Shown here: in pieces, positions 4,865-61,992 of the stretch
Position numbering within the stretch: position 1 is the first letter of the stretch
Layout of the letters: the number at the start of each line of letters is the position of its first letter
Origin: Ceratodon purpureus
Lineage: Eukaryota; Streptophyta; Bryopsida; Pseudoditrichales; Ditrichaceae
Direction: 5' to 3'
Length of the DNA: 64,000 nt
Assembly (NCBI GenBank): GCA_014871385.1
Contig: CM026426.1
Span: 85,580,947-85,644,946, forward strand
Translations under genes and position numbers: made by a program
The notes under the pieces: generated by a model
Told to the model about the DNA's origin: nothing
Seen by the model: the letters and a program-made list of their open reading frames with translations, nothing else
Databases searched by the model: none

Positions 4865-6150
4865 AACTAACGGTAGCTAGATAGTATATTCAATGTATTG
4901 CAAACTTGAGAGAATCCAATTCTTTCAACAACAACTCTTGCGGAAGCATTGAATATTGGTCTAGCATGGTCTTTTCATCAATTGAGAAGTGATATCTTCA
5001 AATCTCTTTCTCCACTTAGTTTCCAATTACATCCTCTTGGAAGGCATAACAATGGCACAAACATGGTCTCCTTGAAAAGTTCAATCAAACATATATAGTC
5101 AATAGCTTCTAATAATAACTTTGAACTTGACCTTTGTCAAAGAGAATAAGCCTGTTAGGTCTTATAAAATATTAGATAATCATCTTCCTACTGAGTTTGA
5201 ATGGGCTTGCTTCAATCGCCTTCACAAACATCAACGTTAAAGACAAAATGATTAGTATTTAAGCAAATCAATGCCTTTATCCTTTGTACTTTAGTACAAA
5301 TCAAATGTGATCCAAACTTCAATGGCTAATTGTTCAAGACCATTCATGTTCAAATCAATGGAACATCATCGCAAATGGCACAACTTCTAACAACTAATTT
5401 GTGGAAGATGCAACATTTGTGCCTACAACATCCTCACTTGAAGCTATTTAAAGAACTTTACCACCATCCTATATATGTAAGACAATGGTGCTTTTAAGAA
5501 AATGGATTATTGTATTAAAACATTCATATGAACATTTGTTGAGGGTCTACCTTTTTTACATTCCCCAACTCAAACAACAAAAATACATTGACCTCAAAAC
5601 TCTTCAACTACATGCCATTCTTAGCAAGCAAGTGGCCTAGATTCCTCAAGTCTGTGAGTTTTGGCATACTAATCTTTCACCATTGCTTGTGGGTCTTAAA
5701 GAAAGAAAATGGCCTTATCTCACAAACATATAATAAACATTTACATCCAGAAGCTTCTACAATCTTCTAAAAATTTCCATAGCCTTGTATAACCTTCTGT
5801 AGGCCCTTCCGAGATTATTCTATATCTCCTAAAACCTTCTATAATATTATTGAACCTTCCATAGTCTTTTAGAATCTTCCATAGTCTTGTAGAAGTTTAT
5901 TTCTTCGTTTTAACAAATTTAACAAATTTATTTGTAGGATGACTCATCTCCGGATGTTCAACCTATATTTATTTGTTGATTTTAACAAATTTAAGAAAAC
6001 AAATGCAAAAAGAATTCATTATGTCACTCAAATCAACATGGTAAACAACTATATGTTGTTTTCAATAGAGGAATTTTAATTATGGTAATTTTGATTTCAA
6101 TTAGTATAATTTTAATTACGACAATTAATTTACAATAATTAAATATTGTA
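4865..6150. other. AT-rich intergenic DNA, no gene seen
   Basis: No coding frame with domain character. Near 5740-5890 short imperfect repeats of CTTCCATAGTCTTNTAGAA occur, including AGAAGCTTCT, which looks like a heat-shock-element core, but no promoter or gene lies beside it. Confidence 0.5.
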
Positions 6151-14375: not shown

Positions 14376-14590
14376 CCAAAAAATGTACAAAGAGTATGTT
14401 CTGAATACACACGGTACTACAAACAATACATGGGCTGAACCATTCTTCAAAATCTTTGCATTTCGCCTGTTTGTACATGTAGTATATCAAAAATGTACAA
14501 ATAGTATGTTGTAGATTTATATACGGTAGTACAAACAGTACATGGGCTGAAATATTGTTCAGAATAGCACAACACAGATGTGAAGTCATC
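14376..14590. repeat. Tandem duplication, period about 110 bp, with GTAC motifs
   Basis: AAAATGTACAAAGAGTATGT at 14,380 recurs as AAAATGTACAAATAGTATGT at 14,490, followed in both by TACAAACARTACATGGGCTG. Each unit holds several GTAC motifs. It abuts and slightly overlaps the 3' end of the SET gene. Confidence 0.75.
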
Positions 14591-15649
14591 TTCTCCTAGG
14601 TGCTTTCCTCGTTGACCTTCGGATGGCAAGTGGTAAGGCATTGTCTCTACACATTTTACTCTTACACTTACAAGAAAACTGAGGTAGGTCCAGATCATCA
14701 TTGTTAAAATTAGTGCCATAGTCCCAAGTTAGTTCCTCTCCAGGCCGTATGATACGATTTGCAAAAAATGCTACATGATAGAAGCGGCGATCCACACTCT
14801 CTATCGAGACAGGTACATCCACTAGGTTAGAATCTTCACACCTGAAATGAGAGAGGCCCACCGTCAGGTCAGATTGAAAACGTGAGGACAAAGACCGCAG
14901 AGTATATAGAATATGGTCACAAGTTCTAACATGTGGTTCAAAAACCTGGCCACATTTCCAAACCGAGAGGAGTCCAAGCATAGTGCACTGTGGTCGTCCA
15001 GTATCCGCTCAGTGGCCCAATCAGCATCAAGTTGCAAGCTATAGGACTGACCCCCAACTACCGCCAAGTTCCTAACCATTTGCTCAGCATTCGTTAAAAT
15101 CTCTCCCATCAACTCAAAAACAAACGCACCTCTAGGTATTAGCTCAGTCGTCCGAATCCCCCACCCCGTAAGGGCTGTAGGAAAAACCTCTACTTGAAAC
15201 TTCATCCCCTGCTGGACAACACGATTGCCACAATCACTATGACACCTACACTTAACATTGCACTCCTTAACGAAAAGACGACCCACATGACCTCGGCACA
15301 CTGAATCTCCATTAAAACACCGTGCACCCTTCTTACAGTAATGTGCATCTTCTTCATTGCGTGGCTCCAGATATGCGTCCTCCACTTGGCCTCCTTCAGT
15401 GTATGCAACTCCACCGACTGGACTGGATTGGCATGCACAAGTACCATTCGCCCCCAAGCATTCCGGGGAACATATACAGAAGTCCCCGGGGCGGAGGCTT
15501 TCAAGGGTGGTAGGCACGACTGCTTGGTCAAAGACCACACTCGTATTCATATATTGAAAATATGTCATAGCAATTTCAGACTGACCGACAAGGACAAGAA
15601 TCCTCTCAAGCCCCTTCGACAGGTCTGCTGCATCAAACCAAGCTTCAGC
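14586..15649 (-). CDS. SUVR4-like SET-domain histone H3K9 methyltransferase
   Basis: Nuclear chromatin enzyme expected to transfer methyl groups to histone H3 lysine 9. Two visible exons: 15649-14931 and 14841-14586, with an 89-bp intron (GTTAGA...TTTCAG) that restores the frame across the active-site motif. Pre-SET: a zinc-binding Cys set from CICSPECLGANGTCAC to KECNVKCRCHSDCGNR (about residues 58-145 of the visible part). SET: GWGIR for cofactor binding, LDADWATE, ALCLDSSRFGNVARFLNHMC (NHxC motif), then GEELTWDYG with the catalytic Tyr. Post-SET: FSCKCKSKMCRD. The LDADW and ELTWDYG signatures match the SUVR1/2/4 clade, which in Arabidopsis acts on transposon chromatin. An in-frame acceptor at 15650 means further 5' exons exist, not found with confidence. 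There is no lesion in the visible exons, unlike the neighbouring genes. It could be a captured or a host gene. Confidence 0.85.
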
Positions 15650-15975
15650 CTGGTAGAATCACATCCCAACAGACCACCTTCCCCTCGTCATTCTCTTAAA
15701 AATGGAAAGGACAAGTTCTAGAACTGCAAGGGAGGACTACGAAAAGTACAAATGCAAAGAAATAAAAAAATGGGCCGCAAATAGCACAACCGCATGGGGA
15801 AAAAAAACAGACAAGCCTTGAACCTTCCCTGTTGGGAAGACCTCGGTGATGAGGTAAGATACATTAATATACCTGCAAGTCCATTCTATGCAAGCATTCT
15901 ACCGCAGCTCAATAGATCAAAAAACAAAAAACTTAAACACTACAAGCAATCCTACAGATTGCAGAAGCCTGTATT

Positions 15976-47923: not shown

Positions 47924-47932
47924 CGAGGAAGC
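47924..47932. other. Left copy of 9-bp target site duplication of the giant MULE
   Basis: CGAGGAAGC here and TGAGGAAGC at 61,657-61,665, one mismatch. Nine bases is the usual Mutator target duplication. Confidence 0.75.
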
Positions 47933-48192
47933 CGGAGAACGCTATATCCCATGTAGGAAAGGATAGACTCGCGGGCCCCGCCCCTCGGCGGTCACCGTCG
48001 ACGGCCACGTCGGATCAGCTGTTTTTCCCGCGCGGAGGCGGCCACAGTAACTACGCCCCCCCCTAACTTCTACATCTCGTAACACTGTAACACAGTCCCC
48101 CTGGCGGAGACACTGCATGCATCTAGTAACACTAGAATATCGTGACACTGCGTCCCTTGATCAGAACGTGACCGAAAGAAAAAACATTGACG
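47933..48192. repeat. MULE left terminal inverted repeat
   Basis: Begins CGGAGAACGCTATATCCC and ends AAAAAACATTGACG. It contains the palindrome CCGTCGACGG, a C9 run (48,056-48,064) and GTGACACT (48,142-48,149). It matches 61,387-61,656 inverted along nearly its full length. Confidence 0.9.
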
Positions 48193-48362
48193 ACGAGAAG
48201 TTGCAGAACGGATGCAATGTCACATTGTCGTTTAGAATTTTGATCTAGGGTTACGGAGTGCTTGTTTTCGACTAGGTTTCCTTTCAATGCTTGTGTTTCG
48301 TGTTGTTGTGTCCATTTCCTTCATGCATGCTCGAGTAGCCCATTTCCCCACCATCAGAAGCC

Positions 48363-51300
48363 ATGGATGGCGTAGGTTTAGGGTGTGAAGAGAAGAACTG
48401 CTGCAATGATGTTGAGATGGACGCGGACGTCGACTTGAGTCAGTTCGATATTCACAAGCTTCAGCTCGAGGGAATAGAGGCCTGCGTTCAGCACCCACCT
48501 CCAGGCACTTTCGGTCCCAGGGATTTGGGATGGGATCTGGTGAACTGCCCTCCTCGTGGGGGTCACAAGAAATCACATGTTGTTCAGCAGTGTTACATAC
48601 CCACGATTAGGGTTGACAACTTCATCGATGGGATGCAGTGTGGGAGGGAGGGAGCACAATGCAAGTTCCGCCAGAACAAAGAAAATAGAGGACCTAACCA
48701 GTTCCGAGACGGACACCGCACTGCGCTCAACTTCGTCAGGTACGTTTGCCACTGTCACAGCAATTCCTTTCGGTTATTGGCTTAAATTCTCACTGTCACA
48801 GTCTTCCGCACATCTGTTTGTACCGATCCTGGCCCGCCTGTGATGGATACGAATGTAAATGTCGGTCGTGCATGTCATGCCGATTAGGGTTACCGTTCTC
48901 GGGAAGATTGTGCTTGACCTACATTGCAGGTTTAGGGTGCTCGTAGAGGAAACACATGTTCCAGTGACATAGACGTAAAGCACAATCTCCATTTTATGTA
49001 ATGTCAGATACAAATGCAAGTATGGTCCACAAGATTACAGTGGCATCGTGAAGCCCATTTCCGAGGACCTCCTGCCGAAGCCAAAGAAGAAAGCGTGCGT
49101 CCCTGACTCGCAACCGGAGGGTAACGCAATTGCTCCCACAAGGAAGGCTCGGGCGAAGCGTTCAAAGCCCGGTGAGGGACGCAAACCACCACGTAAGTTC
49201 AGGTCGAAGACTGTCGCAAACGTCGATGCTATGGATTCGATGGTACAGGAAGCTGAGGTAATACCTCCAAAGGGTCGAACACGAAAGAAGAAGGTGGTTC
49301 CTAAAGACAGTGAGAGTCCAATGCCCAAGCAAACGGCGGGAACGAATTCCGGTTTGCCGGATTTGAACGAGGTTCCGACTGTTGAGGACGTTCTGCCTGA
49401 GGCACCGAAGGTTATCAAGAAGCGTGCTCCCCGGAAGAAGGCTGTGCCGAAGGATGTCAGCGGCTGCAAAAACCTGGTGAATGTCGTAGATAAGGAGGCA
49501 CCAGTAAAGCAGACGAGGCCTCGTCAGCAGAGAAAGAAACGTGACACTACAAAAGAGACGTCACTTGCATCTGACGGAAGCAAGGTTGTCGATCCTATTC
49601 CTCCTAAGCCTCGTAAGCCGCGTGGACCAAGAATGAAGAAGGCGGATACAGCCATACCGGTGATGATTTCCAATCCACCCATGGAAAGAAATATTGATCA
49701 GTCGATGACACCTCCACTGGCATCAATAGCTTCGTTGAGCTGCGACAGTGGACAAGGGATACCGCATAGTACATGTACTGAAGGTAGTGGGAATATTGGT
49801 GGGCAAGGAATTGATATCCTCTTGATTGCACTCTGTGACACTGCTACATGCATTGGCGGTACAGACTGTCATGAGACAATGGAGAATTCGTAGGTTCAAC
49901 CTCCCGGCGTTAGTGAGGTCCTAGATCCCTTCGGTACAAAACCAACTGAGAATCACTTTCCCGAATCCGTTCCAAAACAAGAGACGAAGCCTAAGGTAAA
50001 GCTACGTAGAGACTTGAAGAAGAAGTGGGGGGGGGGGTCTATAAAGCGAGGTTGTCTTGCACAGTTCACCGTCAAAACTCTGCTCTACCTCCCTCACGTC
50101 TCCGAGATTACCATAATTCATGAGAAATACGTCAATTCTGACGGATTAGTCGTCCATGGCGGAATGAAGGTAGGGGATAGAAGCGCCTTCTCTGCTCATC
50201 TTTCTCCGGAAATCAGGTCATTCGTGGAAGACTGTCTGCGTAGGAAAGAGACCGTCAATCAAATCATGAGGAAGCATCTTGACTTGTTGAAAAAATATCA
50301 AGCCGAAGGTAGGGACATTACTAGGGATCTGTTACTGACTACAAAGGACATCTGAAATATTTCTGGTAAGTTGGCATAGGAGACATATATGCTCCACAAA
50401 AATGACGCGCAAAGTGTTCGCATGTGGGTACAGAGGAATCCGGATAAGGTGTTTAACTACAACGAATCAAACGCTACTAAACCAGTCCCCGTTCCAGGGG
50501 AATTAACAGGTCAGAACATGCCATTCACAACTGGTATTCAAACAAAGTGGCAGAAGGAAATGATGTTAAAATACGGACATCAAGGTGGCATATCCGTAGA
50601 TGCCACATTCGGGACAAATGACAAAAAGGTTAGCTGCTCCCTTCTTATTCCTGCAATCCTACGAAGTTGTGACACTATCTACTTACCCTGTCGTAGAACG
50701 TTTCACATTACTGACACTGTGGTCACTTTTCGTGACATTGATTATATCGCCTTTCTGTCTTACAGTTCCCTCTTTACACACTTATGGTGTTCGATGAATG
50801 GCATAACGGCATACCAGTTGCATAGATACTTACCTCAAGGTGTAAAGAGACGGATCTCACCCCTTGGATGTCGGCATTGAACGAAAAAATGAAGGCAGAG
50901 AACCCCGATTGGAGACCTTCGGCGTTCATTGTTGATTGCACACGTGGGGAAATTAATGCAATCAAGTAAGTCCTCCCCTGACTATGTGTGACTCAGATCG
51001 TAACTCTAAAAACCGTCCATTACTGGATTTTATAATAACGCCGCTAATGTTGTTATTTTAATTTTCGCAGTGTCACATGGCCTAAGACAGCCATATTCCT
51101 GTGCCTCTGGCACGTACGCCGAGCTTGGCAGAAAAACGGCTGTTATAAAATACCAAATCTGGAACGTCGTGCTGCCATTCTAAAGGAGTTAGGGATGATG
51201 ATGTATGACAGAGAGTCACCTCCAGTGGACGAGGGAAGGGCATGGGCCGATAAAAAGATTGAGGAACTGGAGAAAAAATACCCCCAGGAATCCGAGTTCT

Positions 51301-52225
51301 GGAAGTACATGAAATTTCAGTGGTTAGATAAAGTGCACATGTGGGTTGTAGGGTACCGGAATATGGACTACTGTGGATAGGATACGAACGCTGCCATCGA
51401 GGGATACCACGGCTTCACGAAGTCCATTCTTAAATCCGAGAGGAGTAGAATGACTGGCAGACGAGTTGACTGGTGTATTACTGCGCTTACGGAAGACGTC
51501 CTTGACCACTACTGGTATAAAGACCTCCGGAAACAGAAGGGATTTGTAGACAACAAAACAATGCAAGACACGGTCGTTTCGTCTATTCTGAAAGCCAAAG
51601 CTATCCCTGACGAAGACGTGACACTACCATTGCTTGATAGTGACACTGCACTTGTTACTTCCACTGATCATCGGCATTTGAGATATACAGTGCACAATCC
51701 AGGTACAGAATGGGGTGTAATTGCGTATGGGCACAGCGCGGCAACATGTGCAAGCATCATGTAAAAGTGGTCATGATGTTGCACCCTGAAATTGCAGAGG
51801 GAACAATCGCTAGGTACTGCGGAAGATTAGCAGGCAACATTAACGGTGGGCTTTCGCAACTTCTGACACCTCGATGTGTAGATCCTCCTCCTCCACCGAG
51901 TGAACCAACAACTCCATACTCGGCTACGAGGGCAACTCCCCAAAGGAGAGTATAAACTGACCTTCCTGAGATTCTGCAACGACAGATTGATCAACTCCGT
52001 GAGGAGGTCGACGGCGATGTCGTACTTATGGAGCATTTGGTAGCAGAATTTAATATGACATTGGGACGGATGCGGACATTGAAGGCTGAACTTTGGTCCG
52101 GGACTCGGCACCCTATGGCCGCATCTCCGAAATTTGTCCCGGTCAACGACAGAAAGGGTTTTAAGCTTGGTCGTTTTAGAGATTTCCTTGAAGGGCCCAG
52201 AAGGACTGTAGCTCGTCGCCTTTGA
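48363..52225 (+). pseudogene. MULE transposase, FAR1-like finger, DDE core and SWIM finger; broken
   Basis: Catalyses excision and insertion of the element. Exons: 48,363-48,739; 49,008-50,628; 50,766-50,966; 51,071-52,225. All introns are GT-AG and in phase (for example NFVR-YKCKYG). N-terminal zinc region: CGREGAQCKF, YKCKYGPQDYSG, later RGCLAQFTVKTLLYLPHVSE as in FAR1 fingers. Between them lies a Lys/Arg/Pro-rich insert with AT-hook-like KPRGPRMKK. Core: SVDATFGTN (Asp), AFIVDC (Asp), CLWHVRRAW, AAIEGYH (Glu). SWIM finger CNCVWAQRGNMCKH. C-terminal coiled coil. Stops: TAG 49,891, TGA 50,353, TAG 50,377, TAG 50,823, TAG 51,378, TAA 51,953, plus one frame change at 51,707 in a G run. Every stop can be explained by one C-to-T change on either strand. 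The frame continues cleanly after each. Confidence 0.85.
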
Positions 52226-52388
52226 CGGTACTGACTATCAGGATCATGTTATTTAGATACCCTGATTTAGGGTTTCGGGTTCACGGTAATAAAAAGGGAA
52301 ACCGCTTGACACACTGTTCTCATTATCTCGTACACTTCCTGTTATCACTTTCTCTGAGGTTCTTAGTTTTTTTAGCGCGGTCGTTGCT

Positions 52389-52796
52389 ATGGCTTCCTTA
52401 TTGCTCTTCGTCGCGCTTGATGTAAGCGATATACTCTTCTGTTTTGTCGTCGCAGTTTTTGCTATGGCGTTTCTTGCTGTGCTAGTTATCGTTTCCAGAT
52501 ACGAAGTGGACGTCATTTGGCGTAATGTGGACGCGGAGCGTACCGTGGGTCCTTCTGTATGTAAGGGCATTTCTAGGGGCGGAGGAAAACCGAAGGCACA
52601 TTTCAGGAAACGGGGTGGTGTACATCACGACCCGGCTTCGATGGATAATGTCGGATCTGTAGGACTATCCAGCAGGCGTGTACAGGAGGTGGAGGAACCT
52701 TGCAATTCGGAGAATGCGGCATTCATATGGGGAGAGTACTATGCAGGTATAGGCGAGGAAGAGTTACATAACTTAAGCTCCTACAGTGCTAAGTAG
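52389..52796 (+). CDS. Possible small membrane protein, 135 aa
   Basis: ATG at 52,389, 163 bp after the transposase stop, open to TAG at 52,794. Residues 1-37 are strongly hydrophobic (SLLLFVALDVSDILFCFVVA, then MAFLAVLVIV), giving one long or two short membrane helices. The remaining 95 residues are basic then acidic and look soluble. I recognise no family. It could be a genuine cargo gene, a 3' exon of the transposase, or chance. It has no internal lesion while the transposase has several. Confidence 0.3.
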   Translation: MASLLLFVALDVSDILFCFVVAVFAMAFLAVLVIVSRYEVDVIWRNVDAERTVGPSVCKGISRGGGKPKAHFRKRGGVHHDPASMDNVGSVGLSSRRVQEVEEPCNSENAAFIWGEYYAGIGEEELHNLSSYSAK

Positions 52797-53321
52797 TGTC
52801 AAGCATCCAGATTTGTGTGACAGTGCAGTAGGACTTGATAGTGGTCTCGCATGCCAGTGTAAGTTTTTAATTTTGGATGTATACAAAGACGGAGATATCA
52901 TTTTGAAGTATACACTTAGGATTCTATTCGATGCAAATCCGTTATAGTGTGACACTATGTCATGGCGTAACACTTGATGGATGCTGTCGTAACCTAAGAT
53001 GCATATGTAACTGCTTTAATGTCTGTGTTAAAACATATAACTAATTGCCTACAGTTCTAAATTATGAACTGCTGTGAGTACATGATACTATGGAATTGCA
53101 ACCACACTCCAACATCTTAGTGTCACGTGACGTATTCTTCCACTTAGATTGCCCTTGCAGTAGTGAGACGTAAGTAGGCAAACACTGTACTCGCTTGAAC
53201 TGTTCAGTTGTGGGGAAGAGAACGACCTTCTTTCTCTCTGGAGCATTCTTGTTAACACCCGAAGGAATTGTCCTTCTGCGGTCTGGATGGCGAGGCCCAA
53301 TACACAAGGCCGGAGGATATA

Positions 53322-53721
53322 CATTAGGAGAAAAATCAGCTCAAAATAAGGTCGTGTAAGCCTGCCCTTTCTAGGTGAACTCCCTTCTTTGGGCACCTCT
53401 GCCGCTGGCAGCGGATGCCAGAGTTGCTGCCCGCACAGAACTGCGTGGCGCACTCACAACAAAGGTCCTCGGAATATTAGGTGAGACATGAATGCCTCGG
53501 CTCGGGCTTTGGTCCCAAGTGGGCAGGTTGTGTCAGCCCGACACTGTAGATGTGCCCTCCACACGCCTCCCTCGGAGGTCATTGGTTCGAGCCCCCGTGG
53601 CGGTTGCTGGCACCACGGTGGCACCTCACATGCCATGTCAAAAAGTACGCGGGCAGCGCCCGTTTTTTTCTCTCACGTGCCGCTTACACGGCCTTTTTGT
53701 GACCTGATTTTTCTCCTAATG
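53322..53721. mobile_element. Foldback/MITE nested in the MULE, 400 bp, with a B-box-like site
   Basis: CATTAGGAGAAAAATCAGCT at 53,322 and its inverse CTGATTTTTCTCCTAATG ending 53,721. The inverted repeat extends to GGYCGTGTAAGC, about 38 bp. The interior is GC-rich and holds GGTTCGAGCCC (53,584-53,594), a good polymerase III B box, with TGGTCCCAAGTGGG (53,510) as a weak A box. It contains no GTGACACT, unlike the host element. No clear target duplication. Confidence 0.6.
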
Positions 53722-53899
53722 CTCGGTCATCTTGTAGAGGCACTCCACTACGATTGGAGGACAGAAAGGAGCGTTCCGTTCCTGGGACAGGTACCTCGAC
53801 AATGTTGGCCATTGTTGCTAAGAACTCGAGTACCTTTGATTCTAGACCTTCCATCCCTGGGTTGGACTCCGAATATCAAAACAGAGCTAACGTCGATCA

Positions 53900-55427
53900 C
53901 AACCTAAGAAATTGAAGTACGGAAGAGAGGGTGCAAGAGAGGATCCGAAACTAAGAAGTTCTCCCTTATATACAAACGGTTCGCGTTGATGTGTTGAATA
54001 GGTCGACGTTCTTCTACTATGGGAACTCGCTCACGTTTGGAACTCTGAATACACCATATATAGTTCTGACACAGTAGTCGTGACACTGCCCTATATTATG
54101 GCAGTGTCCTAGTGTCACAGTAGTCGTGAGACTGCCCTCTGATCATAATAGCGAGAGTACCATAAGGTCCATCCACATTGCTATTTAGCAACTTCTTATC
54201 ATATCCGTAGTACAGCCTACTCCATACGAACACATACTTAGACCTTGCATTAGAATAAATATCAATTAATTTTCAACACACATGTTATAGACCCTAGGAA
54301 AATTCCGGATTTAATAAACATATAATCCTCTATAAGATATGAAGACGTAGGCTCTATCCTCTCCCCTAATTCTTAAAGAAATCATTATAGAACAATCGTA
54401 GTAATTAATTAATGTGGTGAATACTATTAAAATGATTAGTTTGTTTCTTTTCAAAAAATCGTTATGCTATACATAGTAGAAATCTAAATACTTTGTTACT
54501 AAATTCATAAAAAAATATTTATGTTCTTTAATGATACATAAATTTTCATAATAAAATACGTAATTCCCATATTATGAGGTTTTGAAAAAAAAAATTAAAT
54601 AAATAAACCAATGGCTCTCAAATTAAAAAATAATTTGAGTTCTTCGATGAATATATGAATTCTCACGTTATCAAATAGACATAAAAATGTGCGAGTACTA
54701 AACCAAAAATTATGATACTATATAATTCCAAAAAAAAATAAAAAAATAGTTAAAACTTATTTCATGTAAAATTTAATATGATGTTATGTGTTTATTTTTT
54801 TAAGTAAATGACATAGATGAATAAATTGAAATTACGATCATAAGTCCTTTGCTTCTATGAATTTTATATCTCCTATCTTCGTGTATGTGATATACTAAAT
54901 GTTACTATGCACTTACTTCCTCATTCTCAGGATCCGTTGCTAAAGTCTATGTTAATTGAAAATATCCTTCATTATGAATACCTAATCAACAGCCGTCTTT
55001 GATTTCGATAGATGAGGCATTCATACCTTTGTTTTACTATAATACTATCAGATGCGAAATAGTAGAGTTAAGAGTCCCACCTCCTTTCAAATTAATGCAT
55101 CGACGTTGCTATAGACACTCCCACATGTTTTGTGGTGAGGGCACACTTAATCATTTTTGCTTACAGGATAGTATGCAATTAATAAAGGAAGGCCAGTTCC
55201 AATACGTTTAGACCCAAACGATGTACAACAAATAGGACAATAGATTATGTCAAACATGTCTCTAGTATACCTACCGGTTTCCAGAAAGGTTTAGAGAGTG
55301 TCATATGTCCAAAATGCCTTTAAGTCATAATGTATTCTAAATGACTATTACAATGTCCATTCAGACGCCATATAGTGGCCCCTTCTTATCGTTCACGGGG
55401 CATTCTCTATCGGCCGCTGTACACATT
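53900..55427. other. MULE spacer between the two gene sets
   Basis: 54,070-54,145 has a direct repeat of CAGTAGTCGTGACACTGCCC (second copy with one change), with two exact GTGACACT-type sites. 54,200-54,900 is very AT-rich with no coding signal. Transcripts from both sides converge here. Confidence 0.55.
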
Positions 55428-58400
55428 CTACAGCAACGATGACCTACATCTAATCGCTGTCCACCTCCGGTAACTCTTCCTCACCGTCTTCACTGCCCGC
55501 AGCTTTCTCCTCCGTGATAGCGAAGGCGCCTTGTAGCGATTATCCCGTTGGACCGGGTCGAGTTCTTTCGCCATCAGTATCAGAATCTCCATGTTCATGT
55601 CCTTTGACCTGAATTCTTCCTGCATCTTCCTGTTCATCATTGCCAGACTGTTATTTACCTGCATAGTACGAAACTGACGAGTATTTCATGGGTTACGTAG
55701 GTCTAAATTCCATCAACAACACATTTGCTAAATATGTACGCGACATATACGAAATTTTCACAGTCTTTCCAACAGTGAACTGCTCCACTTATCCTACAAA
55801 AGTCGACCACAGTGTCACTTCTTATACGATATGGGAGAGTCACGGTCACAGTGTCACAATACAGTCACAATTAAATAACGGAAGATTGATAAAGATAAAA
55901 TACCTTCAGGTATAGTAATGCATTGCGAACGGTGCTGTGGCCGCACTCATAATTCCCAGACTGCTGGTTTACTTCTTGGTGGACGACCTTCACTTCGTAA
56001 TTTTGAACACCCCTGAGTGTTTGCCATGTAAACTTATCCACTTAACAATATCAGCGTCCGTGCTATCGGGATGATGACGCTGACCTACAACGGAGTCCAG
56101 ATGCAATACCTTGTCATACTGGAATATGAGTAGTGACCAATGCCCCTTACTGACCCAGGGCAACAACATCTCTTTAACTTGGCGGATCTGTACGGGTGGA
56201 GAAGGTTGCAAGAACCTCGAGGCCCACTTCAGCAAAGACGTCTTCCCGTGCACTAGTCCTTGTAGACAAGAACTTGCTCTGGATAACAAGAACTGAATCT
56301 CATTTCGGGTACCGGAGGGATACTGAAAATACAATCTGGACATCACAAAGTCCACGACATCATTACCTAACCTTGTCCGCACTTTCGTAAGACCTCGAAT
56401 GGCCCCGAACTGAACCTCAAGTTCCTTCTCCTTCTCGTTGAAGACGACGACCTCCTTTGCTCCATCTTTCTTTCCCAGTCGTCCAGGAAGCCCTAGAAGA
56501 AGGTCCTCGACTCGCAGATGTTTGTACGCTTGTGCAAGTGTCATCACCGAAACTTCCCCAATGTGTACGAGGCTTGCACCAGGCCATGGATCAGAAGCAA
56601 CAGCTGCGGCAATATCCGCGTCTGAAGGTTCTTCATTGGGCTGCGGGCTATGGGAAGTCTCGGAAGGTTCTACATGTTCGACACCCGTAGTTAAAAAAAC
56701 CAGCTGCGACACCACTTCCAGCTCCTCCGCCTCTTCGAAGCTGTTGTTGAGATTATGGCAAGTGGGAAGTTCGTCAGGAATACCTTCCGCACCTGAAGTC
56801 TGCAATGTTACAATGGAAACCCCTCGATAAGGAGTCTGAACCCCAGCTTCGTCATGCCCTTTTTCCCACTGTCCAAAACTAGGGACTTGTGAGAACGCCG
56901 GCACGCCAATGTTCATGTCAGGCCCAGAGTGTGTGGTGTTCTGAAACTGACTAAGTGTTATGATATCGGTGGACGCATGCAAAAAAATTCTTCTGTAAGG
57001 ATAGCTTAGATCTCTGGGAATACGGCTGTGGTTGAAGCACGAACCGCCGTCAGATCTTCATTTACCGCAACATTGTCTACTTGTTTTTCATCAAAGGAGA
57101 AGGAGTCATCAAGAGCATGTGTATCTTCTTTAGTGTCACATTTAATTTGTTCCTGTTGGGAGATGTCCTGATGCGAATCATCTCCTTCGGGGACAAAATC
57201 ACGTGACACTGTGAGGCTTGCAGTCTCGATCAACTCAATTTCAGTACAAGGCTGCCCACAAGCTTTGTCCGTCATTGTCTGGATCATCGGCTGAGGTTCA
57301 TCCTTCGACGTAGTCCCGCAGACTGCCTTAACATTTGCAGCGGCTTCACGGTCAGTGTCTTCATCAACACTAGGCGTCTGGATATGTCGTTGGACCTATT
57401 CCTTGATAAAGTCCCAGGAGCATACTTCCCATTGATTATCGTCCTCCGCGCCCAGAGCCTCCCCAATCTGCTCCGCTGTCTCCATCATTTTTAGTCGTAA
57501 TGCAGCCACGCCTGGATTCCAAGATGGAGTAGAGGACGCGGAGACCCACCGAATGTTGCACTCCTCCCGAATTCGTAGTGCTGTGCTCCAGTGCTGGTGA
57601 GATTCTTCCCAATGTTCGTAGTCTGTCGTGGTCCATGCTTTCATAAATTGCATGGACTGACAAACTGTTAAGTCTTGGAGAGCCCTAAACTGTACGCCGT
57701 ATATCCAATCCAAAATTGCAGTAACTACGACTGCACCGGCAGCGTTGTTAACAAGTTCAAGATCTTCCTGCACACGATGCCGCAAAGCATCCCCGAGAGT
57801 GAATCGTACACCAGCATACTGATAGGCACCCTCGGTCAGGAATGCTGAGAGGGCGCGTTTCACTCCAACAATGCTTCGACACTCTCCACGAAGTTCCGTC
57901 TCTGTCAATCCATAGAATGGACAGGTAAGCATTCTGTAGACTCCATGTACGTTCCGAAAGAGGATCCGCATCAAATATGCAAGTGGCGTTGGGGACTTCA
58001 TGGGTAAACGGGACCCCCGCAGAACATTCGTGATCTCCCTCGCCTCCGACACTATGACACAGTGATGAAGACATGAGACACAGAATTAGGTATGTAAACA
58101 TCGGTGACACTGAAATCGGAAATTAATTAAATCACAGAGGACGCGGTTCTGGAATTGGAGTACTCACTGTCATGGCGCCACGGTAAAGGGGCTAGCTTTG
58201 GGAGTATGTTCCTCGCAAAACGCATGACCCGAAATAAAGGACACCAGTCCCATAAAACCTCTTCCGCGAGCATAGCATGATCCCTCCTAAATAAATCAAC
58301 TGCTCTCTATTCTTCAGCTAAGCGCTGAATCTGCATCCTCTCCTTATACTCCGCTAGTGAAACTTCGTCGTCGGCGTTGTCGATAGTCCATTGGAGGTAC

Positions 58401-60662
58401 TCTTTCAAGCTTCCTAGGTCTTCGTACGGTGTTCCCTCCTCCACGCTTTGAACGAGCATATCAATGGATGCGGTAACGTCTGCAACTATGTAGCTTGGCA
58501 ACGGTGCCTTCTTATCTCCCTGCGTAAAGGACCATCACAGAGAAGATACGGACGTCAGTGTCACGGATCTGCATGAGAACACATTACTTACCACTACACA
58601 CATTATAGGAAACACGGTGAGTACGGTGAGAGTCTTGCCTTTCTCCATGCCCACCAGTAAGCACATCGCATTAGCTTGTCACGGAACTCGTCTGTCTTAA
58701 CAAAAGTCTCCCAATTACGCACGAATTCTTCTCCACTTGAACAATCCCACGTCCACGGCAGTGTCACCTCCGCACCGAACTGTCGTAGGTGATATAGCGG
58801 TGGCATACGCAGCTGATGTGGCGCAACGGGCGCTCCGTTATCGTCCCGCTCAGATTCCGCTACCGAACAAGTCTGCAGCAAGTAATTCTTTTCTAGCTCC
58901 TTAAATGCCGCAGCCTTGGCCTTGAACCTTCCCTCTGTTTGCGAACAGAATGCAAATGGTTTTGGAGACCCCCTTCCCATCGCCCAGTAAAGCTTCAATT
59001 CATTGCTATTCTCCCATGTCCCCTTCCAAACCACCATCTCTGAAACATCCGTCGCCGTAAACGTCGGCGAGTTGACCTGAAACTCGTTCAGTTCGCATGG
59101 GTGCATATCCTGAATGTCACAGCCGGGATCGGGACTGTGACACTGGGCGTCAGGGGTGACAGTGTCACAGAACTTTGTCGCGTAAAGGTCATCATCGGAG
59201 CCGAGATAGAGTTTTGGACCACCTTTATGGACCTGCTTCACAGGTATATGAGGACCACCATGACTAGGGTCAAGTAGCATGGGCAATTTACTCTGAACGT
59301 ACTTCCTTGCTGGAAACACGTTTCCCTGCAAAAGAAATTTATCACCGAGAATTTGTATCGCCCTGTCCCTATCGCATTCAACGTCAAAGAGAACCGAATT
59401 TTCCTATGGAGATTCAACTATTTTTCGTCGAGATGTTTTCCGGTCTTGACCACGCGCCTCGCCCCGGACCGAAACGTGAAACTCTTCAAAATCGTCGTCG
59501 AGGTCGGCTTTTCATTTATTGCTGTCACGTTTACCACCGTTGTCGTCTTTCCCCGCCAAACTGGAGACGAGAACAGTGTCACTTACATCGAAATGTACAC
59601 CTTTTCTCTTCCGCGCCTGTTCTTCTTCGTGGTGAGGATTGCCGGCTAAACCCCCGGCAGTATCCCCTCTCGCAATATGATGGGGCGACTTACCCGCATT
59701 CTGGCACTCCTTCAGATTGTTCCCGTTGTCACTGCCTCCCTCACGAGCATTCACTCCGGAAGGCCCGCATCCGACCAAGATCTCAGGTATTTTGTTCTTC
59801 TCCAACTCCATGCCCTGTCGCCTAGTAACCCTCGTCGATTTCTCCGTTGGAGTTTTCGAAGCTGCACGTGGAGAGATTTTACGTTTCTTGGCCGGAGTTT
59901 TGGGAGTCCCTACAACTGGTTGTTTCGCTACCTTCTTCCTCTTCATAGGAGTACAGTTCTTCCCACCGTCTGCTGGTTCTATGGCGCGTGCCCTACGAAC
60001 ATGTCCTCCTGTGGTGTCACTCGAGCTCCAGTTTTCCACATACCCTGTGCAACGCCACCTTCAATCAGTGGATCTACTCCCCCATCCCCTAACCCCCCTT
60101 CTTCCCCTGGTTCATCTCCTCCTCCATCCTCCGCATCCGCTCCTCGCATAGAGTCCACTCCTGTCGACCCCACTGTCCTACGGCTAATAACCTCGACCTT
60201 CTTCCCCTCCCCTTTCTTAAAGTCAGGATATGGTAGGAGGAGAGCCTTTGGTCCGTCAGGGTAGAGTGCCTCTGGACAACCCTTGACATACCAATGCCTA
60301 TTGAGTATCATCTTATTCAAAAATTCACTCGCCCCGCAGTGAATGCAGACGAAGAACTTCCTCGTACTACCCGGCTTCCGTACTCCTTTGGCCATGGTTG
60401 CGAACTCAAAAATCAGGTCCTGAACCCGCTGCTGACTAGGGTACACAACATTATAGGTAGAGGTGTAAAGCTGTTCTCGCAGTGTCACAGGTTGAGGCGC
60501 CATATCGGCTGCCTTCGCTTCTTGAATATGCACCCCGCAACTCGGACACCCTCTTTTGCTAAATAGAAGAAACCTGAATATATTCCTTAACCCTACCGGT
60601 GAACCGCAGCCTGCTTCGCAATGCACATTCTTGTAAATCCAATCTTCCTCCCGATGGTCCAC
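55428..60662 (-). pseudogene. Zinc-finger/NLS protein with Ulp1-like (C48) cysteine protease domain; MULE accessory gene, broken
   Basis: Expected to cleave SUMO-like conjugates. From the N-terminus: CPSCG, then FVCIHCGASEFLNKMILNRH and CPEA, a C2H2/BED-like finger (60,662-60,270); a basic NLS-rich linker (60,020-59,520: MKRKKVAKQP, PAKKRKISPR); an exon 59,326-58,603 with Cys-containing and Trp-rich parts; an exon 58,519-58,168; an exon from 58,051 with WDWCPL-type and acidic stretches; then the protease (56,560-55,905): GHWSLLIFQYDKVLHLDS (catalytic His and Asp) and VNQQSGNYECGHS (oxyanion Gln and nucleophile Cys). A last exon 55,664-55,428 is basic/acidic. Lesions: TAGs near 58,307 and 57,394 where Gln fits, frame changes near 60,010, 57,000 and 55,995. 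Whether all exons form one transcript is inferred from strand, phase and acceptors. Ulp1-like domains are frequent in plant MULEs. Candidate binder of the element's repeated motif. Confidence 0.7.
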
Positions 60663-61386
60663 AGCGTCCTTGCACAGTAATCCAATTTGAGTACTTTATT
60701 CTAACCCTAAAACCATGAAGATAATTCGGGAAGCCTAGAACCTGAAGCAGGATCCGTAACCCGAGAACCTCTAACCGACTTCTCACACCAGACAGAAACA
60801 AAACACATGTCGAGGTGTAAACATTTCTAGATATTGAGAGCGTAGGTAATACAAGGACAGAGATTCCACCGGGTATCCTCCAGAACTGGGGGATTTTGCT
60901 CTGTGGAGATTCAACATCACTCCGCTTGACAACGCGGAAGCCCAAGAAGAGAATAGAGTTATCCTCCATTTCTAACGACCTAAACCGCTCATACCAAACG
61001 ACGGAATGCAATCAAAAAGATAATGGAAGTGTACCCACCTGCAACGACGCTAGAGAAGTCGAGGCAATGAACCGCAGAATTGAATAACGCAGCGCCATTA
61101 GGATAGAAGACCATCACCTCCAGCGCGTAGGTCGTCGTAATTGCGCAATGATGACGACAACTCATTGCCGGATAGATGTGACATTGTGGGAGGGAAGCCA
61201 TGGCTGCGCAAAATCTCCCTGAATCTCCAAGCGGAATCTCAAACCGCGACAAAGAACAAACCACAATTTCCAAAGCGAAGAAGAAGAGCGCCGACCCATG
61301 CCGATCCGACCCCTTTCCCACAAAACACTAAACCCTAAACTGTCCACAATAGCGAGACATAGATTGCTTCAGTGACGTGGTAGTGA

Positions 61387-61656
61387 CGTCAATGTTTTTT
61401 CTTTTGGTCACGATCTGATCAAGGGACGCAGTGTCACAATATTCCAGTGTTACAAGATGCGTGCAGTGTCTCCGCGAGGGGGACTGTGTTACAGTGTTAC
61501 GAGATGTAGAAGTTACGGGGGGGGGGGGGGGGGGGGGTAGTTACTGTGGTTGCCTTCGCTCGGGGAAAACAGCCGATCCGACATGGCCGTCGACGGTGAC
61601 CGCCGAGGGGCGGGGCCTGCAAATCTACCATTTCCTACATGGGATATAGCGTTCTT
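61387..61656. repeat. MULE right terminal inverted repeat
   Basis: Inverse of 47,933-48,192. It contains AGTGTCAC (61,430-61,437) and a run of about 22 G at 61,517-61,538 where the left repeat has only C9, which explains most of its greater length. Confidence 0.9.
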
Positions 61657-61992
61657 TGAGGAAGCTTCCCACATAACCAGACCCAAACATAAAGTTTACT
61701 GCTCACATCGATTACCTGGTTCCCGTAATCGGACACCCCAGGAAACATTGCTCACGCCTCAATGTGCTCTCGCAAAGCGGTGCGTCCATTTTGGGAAAGT
61801 AAAGGTTGTGCAGGAACGCTTCACTGTTCCCGTAGTCATTTCCCATCTTTATCTCTTGATCTGACAGCCGTTGAATCGAGCTTGTCTCCTACAATTTACA
61901 AAGGTGAAGGCACTTGACGTCTTTGGCCCACACACCCATACGTCTACACGGAAGAATTTCCATTGCAAGAGAGAAGGAAGTCGGAGTACAAT

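Follow-up and report, generated by a model that had tools for sequence, protein, structure and literature searches.

The moss Ceratodon purpureus carries Mutator-like elements (MULEs) in which one short DNA word recurs from end to end. We describe it in a stretch of 64,000 nucleotides (positions 85,580,947 to 85,644,946, forward strand, of contig CM026426.1 in assembly GCA_014871385.1; hereafter the window), which lies on contig C6 of a 362-Mb assembly. A 13.7-kb MULE within the window, copy A0, contains the 8-mer GTGACACT/AGTGTCAC 23 times, and the word is absent from the remaining 50.3 kb. The motif is dense in related elements and concentrated in them, and between diverged members it is conserved at the DNA level, exons included, apparently under selection. 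We tentatively favour the view that these are dispersed binding sites for a protein encoded by the element, perhaps its zinc-finger/Ulp1 product, which may counteract silencing in the manner of the VANC proteins of VANDAL elements.

A short word dispersed through one element

All 23 copies of the 8-mer lie within 47933-61656. The original prediction, made by a model from the letters of this DNA, had listed 22 of them, each at its exact position, and had overlooked the one at 51069 (minus strand). It had also put the chance expectation for the element at about 0.4, close to the 0.54 that we computed, and had rightly seen no copy in the other 50 kb. In 100 dinucleotide shuffles of the window the 8-mer occurred 1.99 times on average and 7 times at most. 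By these shuffled controls and by the flanks, motif density is far lower in other DNA. The word is the most frequent 8-mer of A0 and its ninth base is constant in class, the form YAGTGTCAC being found at 23 of 23 sites, or about one 9-bp word per 600 bp. Variants with one mismatch number 31 inside the element (2.26/kb) and 29 outside it (0.58/kb).

Past the ninth base, the sequences flanking the 23 sites have no pattern in common, and the motif is therefore a dispersed short word rather than the repeat of a longer unit. The sites occupy 1-kb bins approximately as a Poisson process would, with no regular spacing seen in the bin occupancy, and the pair pattern AGTGTCAC-N8-GTGACACT does not occur in the genome. 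As had been predicted, the sites are distributed over terminal inverted repeats (TIRs), introns, exons and spacers. Searched as whole words in a limited library of literature, the 8-mer strings appeared in unrelated context only.

Copies across the genome

The genome holds at least 114 matches to the accessory sequence of the element and at least 150 to a transposase exon. A genome search with the TIR gave 34 matches, of which 14 are near-full-length and pair as seven two-ended copies (family A, A0 included). These copies diverge by less than 3% from their majority sequence and contain 23, 23, 22, 20, 19, 18 and 18 copies of YAGTGTCAC. The motif was found neither in the flanks fetched for the seven copies (61 kb in total, 50 kb of it from the window) nor in a 26-kb insertion nested in copy A4. 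When aligned, the sites fall at 28 distinct places; 23 are kept by a majority of the copies in which the place exists, and two more are present in A1 alone. The end loci of 16 further related copies (about half flank) mostly carry two copies of AGTGTCAC (13 loci), with one locus carrying one and two carrying none. The motif belongs to the element and not to the region, as the original prediction had supposed, and it is found again in further copies and diverged elements.

Genome-wide, YAGTGTCAC occurs 8,833 times and the reversed pattern 5,989 times. Among the first 100 places listed (5.8 Mb of contig C1), 24 lie within a single 15-kb element locus, which also has transposase, Ulp1 and zinc-finger matches of one element. 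Separately, many of the superfamily copies among the matches listed are on C6 (110 Mb), including six of the seven family-A copies, and the insertion nested in A4 contains 17 copies of a 26-bp tandem unit (L039 3611-4063).

Conservation between diverged elements

Diverged elements were picked by protein or TIR match with their motifs unseen: C7, taken whole, 7.5 kb each of D, E and F, and 5 kb of G. Most alignable stretches between diverged elements are about 66-77% identical (about 70% overall). In a ranking from which dinucleotide repeats and words built of only one or two letters were removed, AGTGTCAC is the top over-represented 8-mer in A0 (23 copies), C7 (15), D (10), E (17) and F (15), and it is the commonest 8-mer in G (9 copies). 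Without that filter it is the commonest in five of the six elements and second to poly-A in E. Together, A0, C7, D, E and F (49.9 kb) hold 80 exact copies against 2.04 expected. These copies show preferences at every position, with a preceding Y in 74 of 80 and a following R in 64 of 80, and the single changes best tolerated are an A at position 2 and a T at position 6.

Site observations in alignable DNA are identical over all 9 bp in 12 of 23 cases, compared with 3.9% of 9-bp blocks. The observations were counted from both sides over all ten pairs of the five elements, so that the 12 represent six sites. These are small numbers: in three of the pairs the aligned DNA contains no site, and in four of the remaining seven no site is conserved. 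It is this wider comparison of diverged elements, and not family A alone, that supports site conservation.

Coding sites show what is being held. In subfamilies A, B, C, E and F, the accessory protein has an N-terminal PVTL tetrapeptide in which V is written GTG, T is written ACA and the L codon begins with CT, while the flanks vary: P is written CCT, CCA or CCG, and the next codon changes. The available pieces of D and G do not reach this site, and A4 stood outside the codon comparison. In copy A1 the PVTL protein pattern is unmatched, and the DNA site is kept in all seven A copies. Not every PVTL string found elsewhere in the sequences is spelled with the motif; outside motifs, GTG makes up 32% of Val codons and ACA 30% of Thr codons. 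Because GTGACACT is fixed while neighbouring codons vary, selection appears to act on the DNA. In addition, the tripeptide CDT occurs 9 times against 0.43 expected in six accessory open reading frames (ORFs) of D, E and F (4,212 residues); seven of the nine, none of them in D, are spelled TGT GAC ACT by the motif.

The genes of the element

A0 contains two convergent genes, a transposase gene on the plus strand and an accessory gene on the minus strand. Its identification as a MULE in the original prediction is borne out by the TIRs, the 9-bp target duplication and a PF10551-type transposase. The spliced transposase exons of C7, homologous to those of A0, match PF10551 with E 2.7e-13 (50.6 bits, cut-off 27.6). 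Single transposase exons gave no MULE match in Pfam scans, and the window's copy is not among the matches listed in a genome-wide PF10551 search. A SWIM-like CxC...CxH stretch is visible in the transposase by eye. A stop codon lies within a conserved transposase exon of A0, and its accessory frame is broken near 57057-57398 (by eye).

The accessory product begins with a zinc-finger domain of about 100 residues and ends in an Ulp1-like protease. Matches of the former to zf-C2H2 are weak (four of six members, best E 0.0012), and a search of solved structures with the zinc-finger part gave a best E of 0.17. For the latter, the top three profile matches are two SENP8 sequences and an Ulp1-like SUMO protease (E 0.0056-0.011); PF02902 matches in six of ten members (best E 0.0038), scoring 16.1 bits in F against a cut-off of 20.7. 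Relatives show, by eye, the His, Asp and Cys stretches of the catalytic type. Between A0 and F the zinc-finger domain is 63% identical and the protease part 50%; between A0 and C7 the linkers are 34-43% identical and the main protease piece 49%. Database protein searches returned 9 and 3 relatives, which are unnamed or called 'hypothetical protein' and whose contigs are no longer than 10.2 kb.

A candidate binder and its rivals

In the reading that we favour, some twenty sites per copy would let the binder cover an element over its full length, both TIRs included, while touching hardly any other DNA. The accessory protein would be the most probable binder, with its N-terminal C2HC zinc finger reading the motif. 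Its C-terminal Ulp1-type protease would then cleave SUMO (or a relative) off the silencing factors that sit on the element, which would keep the element expressible and mobile. We infer the binding, the identity of the binder and the anti-silencing effect from the layout of motif and genes. Given an attached SUMO-type protease, removal of SUMO from silencing proteins is the simplest mechanism; MOM1 and the SUMO-ligase-like PIAL2 act in Arabidopsis silencing (PMC6084981). Moreover, a protein that binds a constant motif should keep its reading domain, and the conservation of the zinc finger fits this, the contrast with the rest of the protein being moderate.

Several observations weigh against this reading. 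The Pfam zinc-finger and C48 matches are weak or under the cut-off, and conservation of the zinc finger is not unique, since a 42-residue protease piece is 74% identical between A0 and C7. DUF1985, a domain named in VANC proteins, was not matched by the E and F proteins or four window pieces with E allowed up to 10, or by two accessory alignments with E allowed up to 1 (a genome-wide DUF1985 search gave no match, but all its controls were silent as well). Exon sites are about as dense as those of spacers in two of the four elements scored, denser in one and sparser in D (sites/kb in long ORFs and in the rest: E 2.40 and 2.10, F 2.02 and 1.97, C7 1.47 and 0.97, D 0.75 and 2.00), whereas VANC21 sites are noncoding and arrayed.

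Within family A, the sites are not conserved significantly above random 9-bp blocks. They deviate at 2.0% compared with a background of 2.86% (2.42% outside CpG), and when sets of blocks were drawn at random, 20,000 of each kind, equally low values came up 3,823 times among CG-free sets and 1,295 times among unrestricted sets; the 8-bp core deviates at 1.5%, the resampling having covered the 9-bp sites. The conservation among family copies that the original prediction proposed to look for is seen in part: sites recur and diverged elements show constraint, but family A taken alone is not significant. Finally, transitions in family A run at 5.0% in CG and 4.2% in CHG, compared with 1.5% in CHH and 0.7% at A/T, an excess from which it follows that these copies were probably methylated at some time in the past. 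The ratio of observed to expected CpG is 0.80-0.92 in five elements and 0.58-0.74 in other window DNA, a level expected of a lineage that is either young or often unmethylated, two cases that it does not tell apart.

The transposase, through its N-terminus, remains a rival candidate for the binder. It is better conserved than either the zinc finger or the protease of the accessory protein and is the most conserved product compared. If it (or a TnpA-like protein) bound the motif for transposition, the sites would serve synapsis or the control of excision, an explanation that we consider rather unlikely. Five related boxes (roughly GTRACACTR) are clustered in each TIR of A0 (by eye), and C-type TIRs are similarly laid out; as the TIRs carry the densest boxes, the case for the transposase as binder is strengthened. 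TNPA binds subterminal repeats of CACTA elements (PMC2613891). Transposition alone would not lead one to expect that 21 of 23 A0 sites are internal (introns, exons and spacer), or that gaps between sites reach at most 1,955 bp across five elements. In addition, MULE H, the sole related MULE examined, has a similar-looking transposase and a different motif.

Host transcription-factor sites, taken up by the family as enhancers, are an improbable source of the pattern. Selfish elements frequently borrow host factors, and the core GTGTCAC is near-palindromic, like the sites of many dimeric factors. Against this, the matches listed for the first 5.8 Mb of C1 come to only about 13 per Mb outside the one element, so that no wide host use is visible in that stretch, and an enhancer role needs no coverage of exons.

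It is more improbable still that the motif acts in RNA, as GUGACACUR in transcripts, for instance in splicing, export or RNA-protein contact. The evidence in its favour is a strand bias, GTGACACT lying on the gene-sense strand 38 times and on the other 14 times within gene spans (two-sided P 0.0012). Those 14 sites are antisense, however, and some of them are found again at corresponding places (QCHG in D and E, by eye). A conserved site also persists in a 0.7-kb block of conserved spacer whose orientation is reversed between A0 and C7, which favours a role at the DNA level. The spacer part concerned, window 52959-54048 against 5460-6149 of the C7 element, is about 73% conserved.

That the motif has no function and is a by-product of protein constraint, simple repeats or the recent spread of a short duplicated unit is scarcely credible: sites are locally duplicated in tandem in A1 and looser motifs stand at 8-bp steps in C7, but site flanks are unlike each other past the ninth base, codons are fixed over 8 bp only, introns and spacers carry sites too, and the identical motif in diverged elements largely refutes it.

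Structure of copy A0

The TIRs of A0 are 257 and 269 bp long and 90-94% complementary, and the right end of the element reads GCGTTCT plus two bases. A 9-bp target duplication is perfect in six of eight elements (A1, A2, A4, A5, A6 and C7) and matches at 8 of 9 bases in A0 (by eye); none was seen by eye in A3. Target-site duplications of MULEs measure 8-11 bp (PMC6446971). Copy A1 carries, at a different place, a 97% identical version of the 400-bp insertion that is nested in A0. Coordinates are collected in Table 1. Elsewhere in the window, 14586-15658 (minus strand) holds ORFs with Pre-SET and SET domains (Pfam E 3e-8 and 9e-10) that look like a histone methyltransferase gene or a piece of one.

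Table 1. Features of MULE copy A0 in window coordinates; 'site' denotes YAGTGTCAC.
Feature	Position	Strand	Remarks
MULE copy A0	47934..61657		13.7 kb, GGAGAACGC...GCGTTCTTT, interrupted reading frames
Left target-site duplication	47925..47933	+	GAGGAAGCC; 8/9 bases match the right one
Right target-site duplication	61658..61666	+	GAGGAAGCT
Left TIR	47936..48192	+	motif-like boxes GTAACACTG, GTAACACAG, GAGACACTG, GTAACACTA, GTGACACTG at about 48079-48150 (by eye)
Right TIR	61387..61655	-	similar boxes (by eye)
Transposase gene	48414..52222	+	tblastn against element C7; exon limits approximate
Transposase segments conserved with C7	48414-48740, 49006-49770, 49906-50352, 50380-50631, 50826-50966, 51069-51377, 51381-51719, 51716-51949, 51959-52222	+	tblastn
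Nested insertion	53322..53722		400 bp, 40-bp inverted ends; missing at that place in the other six copies
Accessory gene	55874..60695	-	zinc finger (N) to Ulp1-like protease (C); convergent with transposase; interrupted in A0
Accessory zinc-finger domain	60183..60503	-	N-terminal, CxxCx12Hx5C; candidate DNA binder; limits approximate
Site	48142..48150	-	left TIR
Site	49541..49549	-	transposase exon
Site	49835..49843	-	intron or non-conserved stretch
Site	50669..50677	-	intron
Site	51068..51076	+	likely splice acceptor (by eye)
Site	51618..51626	-	transposase exon (DVTL), conserved in C7
Site	51640..51648	-	transposase exon (DTAL), conserved in C7
Site	52949..52957	-	central spacer
Site	53118..53126	+	central spacer, conserved in C7 within the inverted block
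Site	54080..54088	-	central spacer; extra sites at 46-bp step here in copy A1
Site	54110..54118	+	central spacer
Site	55810..55818	+	accessory gene 3' part or spacer
Site	55849..55857	+	accessory gene 3' part or spacer
Site	57131..57139	+	accessory exon (CDT)
Site	57203..57211	-	accessory exon
Site	58104..58112	-	probable accessory intron
Site	58556..58564	+	probable accessory intron
Site	58759..58767	+	accessory exon (VTLPW), also in F
Site	59137..59145	-	accessory exon
Site	59160..59168	+	accessory exon (CDT)
Site	59574..59582	+	accessory exon (SDT)
Site	60480..60488	+	accessory exon (PVTL); GTGACACT fixed in 5/5 subfamilies scored
Site	61429..61437	+	right TIR

Comparison with known systems

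The closest known parallels are VANDAL21 with VANC21 and VANDAL6 with VANC6 of Arabidopsis (PMC5735166, PMC10398659), which are likewise multi-gene MULEs with a short motif that is dense in the copies of the element and scarce outside them. The motif bound by VANC21 is YAGTATTAY, and VANDAL21 loses methylation when VANC21 is expressed; other motifs are found in VANC6 targets (PMC5735166). Compared by hand, YAGTATTAY and YAGTGTCAC agree at 7 of 9 positions, which is suggestive only. The moss family differs in its long TIRs, its dispersed sites in exons as well as spacers, and the absence of DUF1985 from the proteins and alignments searched. Its motif is also constant, the leading 8-mer being the same in six of six elements despite their strong divergence; in VANDALs, related families have different motifs.

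We do not file the family as VANDAL, given its long TIRs, the failure to find DUF1985, the presence of sites in exons as well and the constant motif. The TIRs are not by themselves an exclusion, as VANDALs typically have none or short degenerate ones and some clade members have TIRs of 46-174 bp (PMC6446971). Two further VANDAL traits were considered. A motif mainly in noncoding tandem repeats does not describe these elements, whose ORFs have comparable or higher site densities except in D, and a motif that changes between related families is not what the six agreeing elements show, although the more distant MULE H differs. The original prediction of a VANC-like system with the zinc-finger/Ulp1 gene as candidate thus keeps its gene, which is present and has a well-conserved zinc-finger domain, and direct assignment to VANDAL is not supported. 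A moss system may work like VANC and need not share its ancestry.

MULE H (C1:26252237-26258046, near C1:26.25 Mb) has a motif of its own, GATGGGTATT, with GATGGGTA present 17 times against 0.34 expected in 14 kb, and no AGTGTCAC in the 14 kb fetched around it. Its motif forms two noncoding arrays that flank the transposase gene, often at steps of about 46 bp, a layout that resembles VANDAL. The transposase architecture is similar by eye, and a convergent ORF with Cys/His pairs (by eye) has no Pfam match. Genome-wide, GATGGGTATTG occurs 503 times compared with 104 for its reverse, and a second copy stands at C1:26.08 Mb around another PF10551 match. The different motif of MULE H shows that MULE families within a single genome have different motif systems.

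Ulp1 genes in MULEs have precedents. KAONASHI (KI) MULEs have an Ulp1-like gene opposite to the transposase gene, the orientation seen in the moss family; they are non-TIR elements, unlike the moss family, and their reported hosts are flowering plants (PMC2528002). Ulp1-carrying TIR-MULEs are reported in melon and grapevine (PMC2528002), and a 2026 review (PMC13317346) states that Ulp1 is present in some VANC genes and that elements of this kind recognise motifs. The passages on these elements in both papers mention neither a zinc-finger N-terminus nor an exon-wide motif. Spm/En and other CACTA elements (PMC2613891) resemble the moss family in having a repeated short motif and an element-encoded DNA-binding protein (TNPA in CACTA, a candidate in moss). 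They belong to another superfamily, however, and their motifs are subterminal, whereas the moss motif extends over the whole element.

No report of such a moss motif system was found among the titles listed by searches of a limited library of literature. The theme of Ulp1 and motif is already known in flowering plants; as far as our searches show, the new parts are the moss host, a zinc-finger N-terminus on an Ulp1 protein, exonic sites and one motif across very diverged elements. A more ambitious claim, which we regard as doubtful, is that this is sequence-addressed anti-silencing by a SUMO protease outside flowering plants, with one fixed address across a whole MULE superfamily, in coding and noncoding DNA alike, such that a single intact copy could lift the silencing of every other.

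The best-documented cases of self-addressed anti-silencing are VANDALs, and a likely moss analogue would suggest, if true, that the strategy is old or recurrent among MULEs. The motif is constrained enough to fix codons, more than 100 copies are available for comparing motif with protein, and VANC-like action after binding would become testable through SUMO. If the reading holds, a fixed motif address shared by copies whose spacers mostly no longer align would be the opposite of the fast motif turnover of VANDALs.

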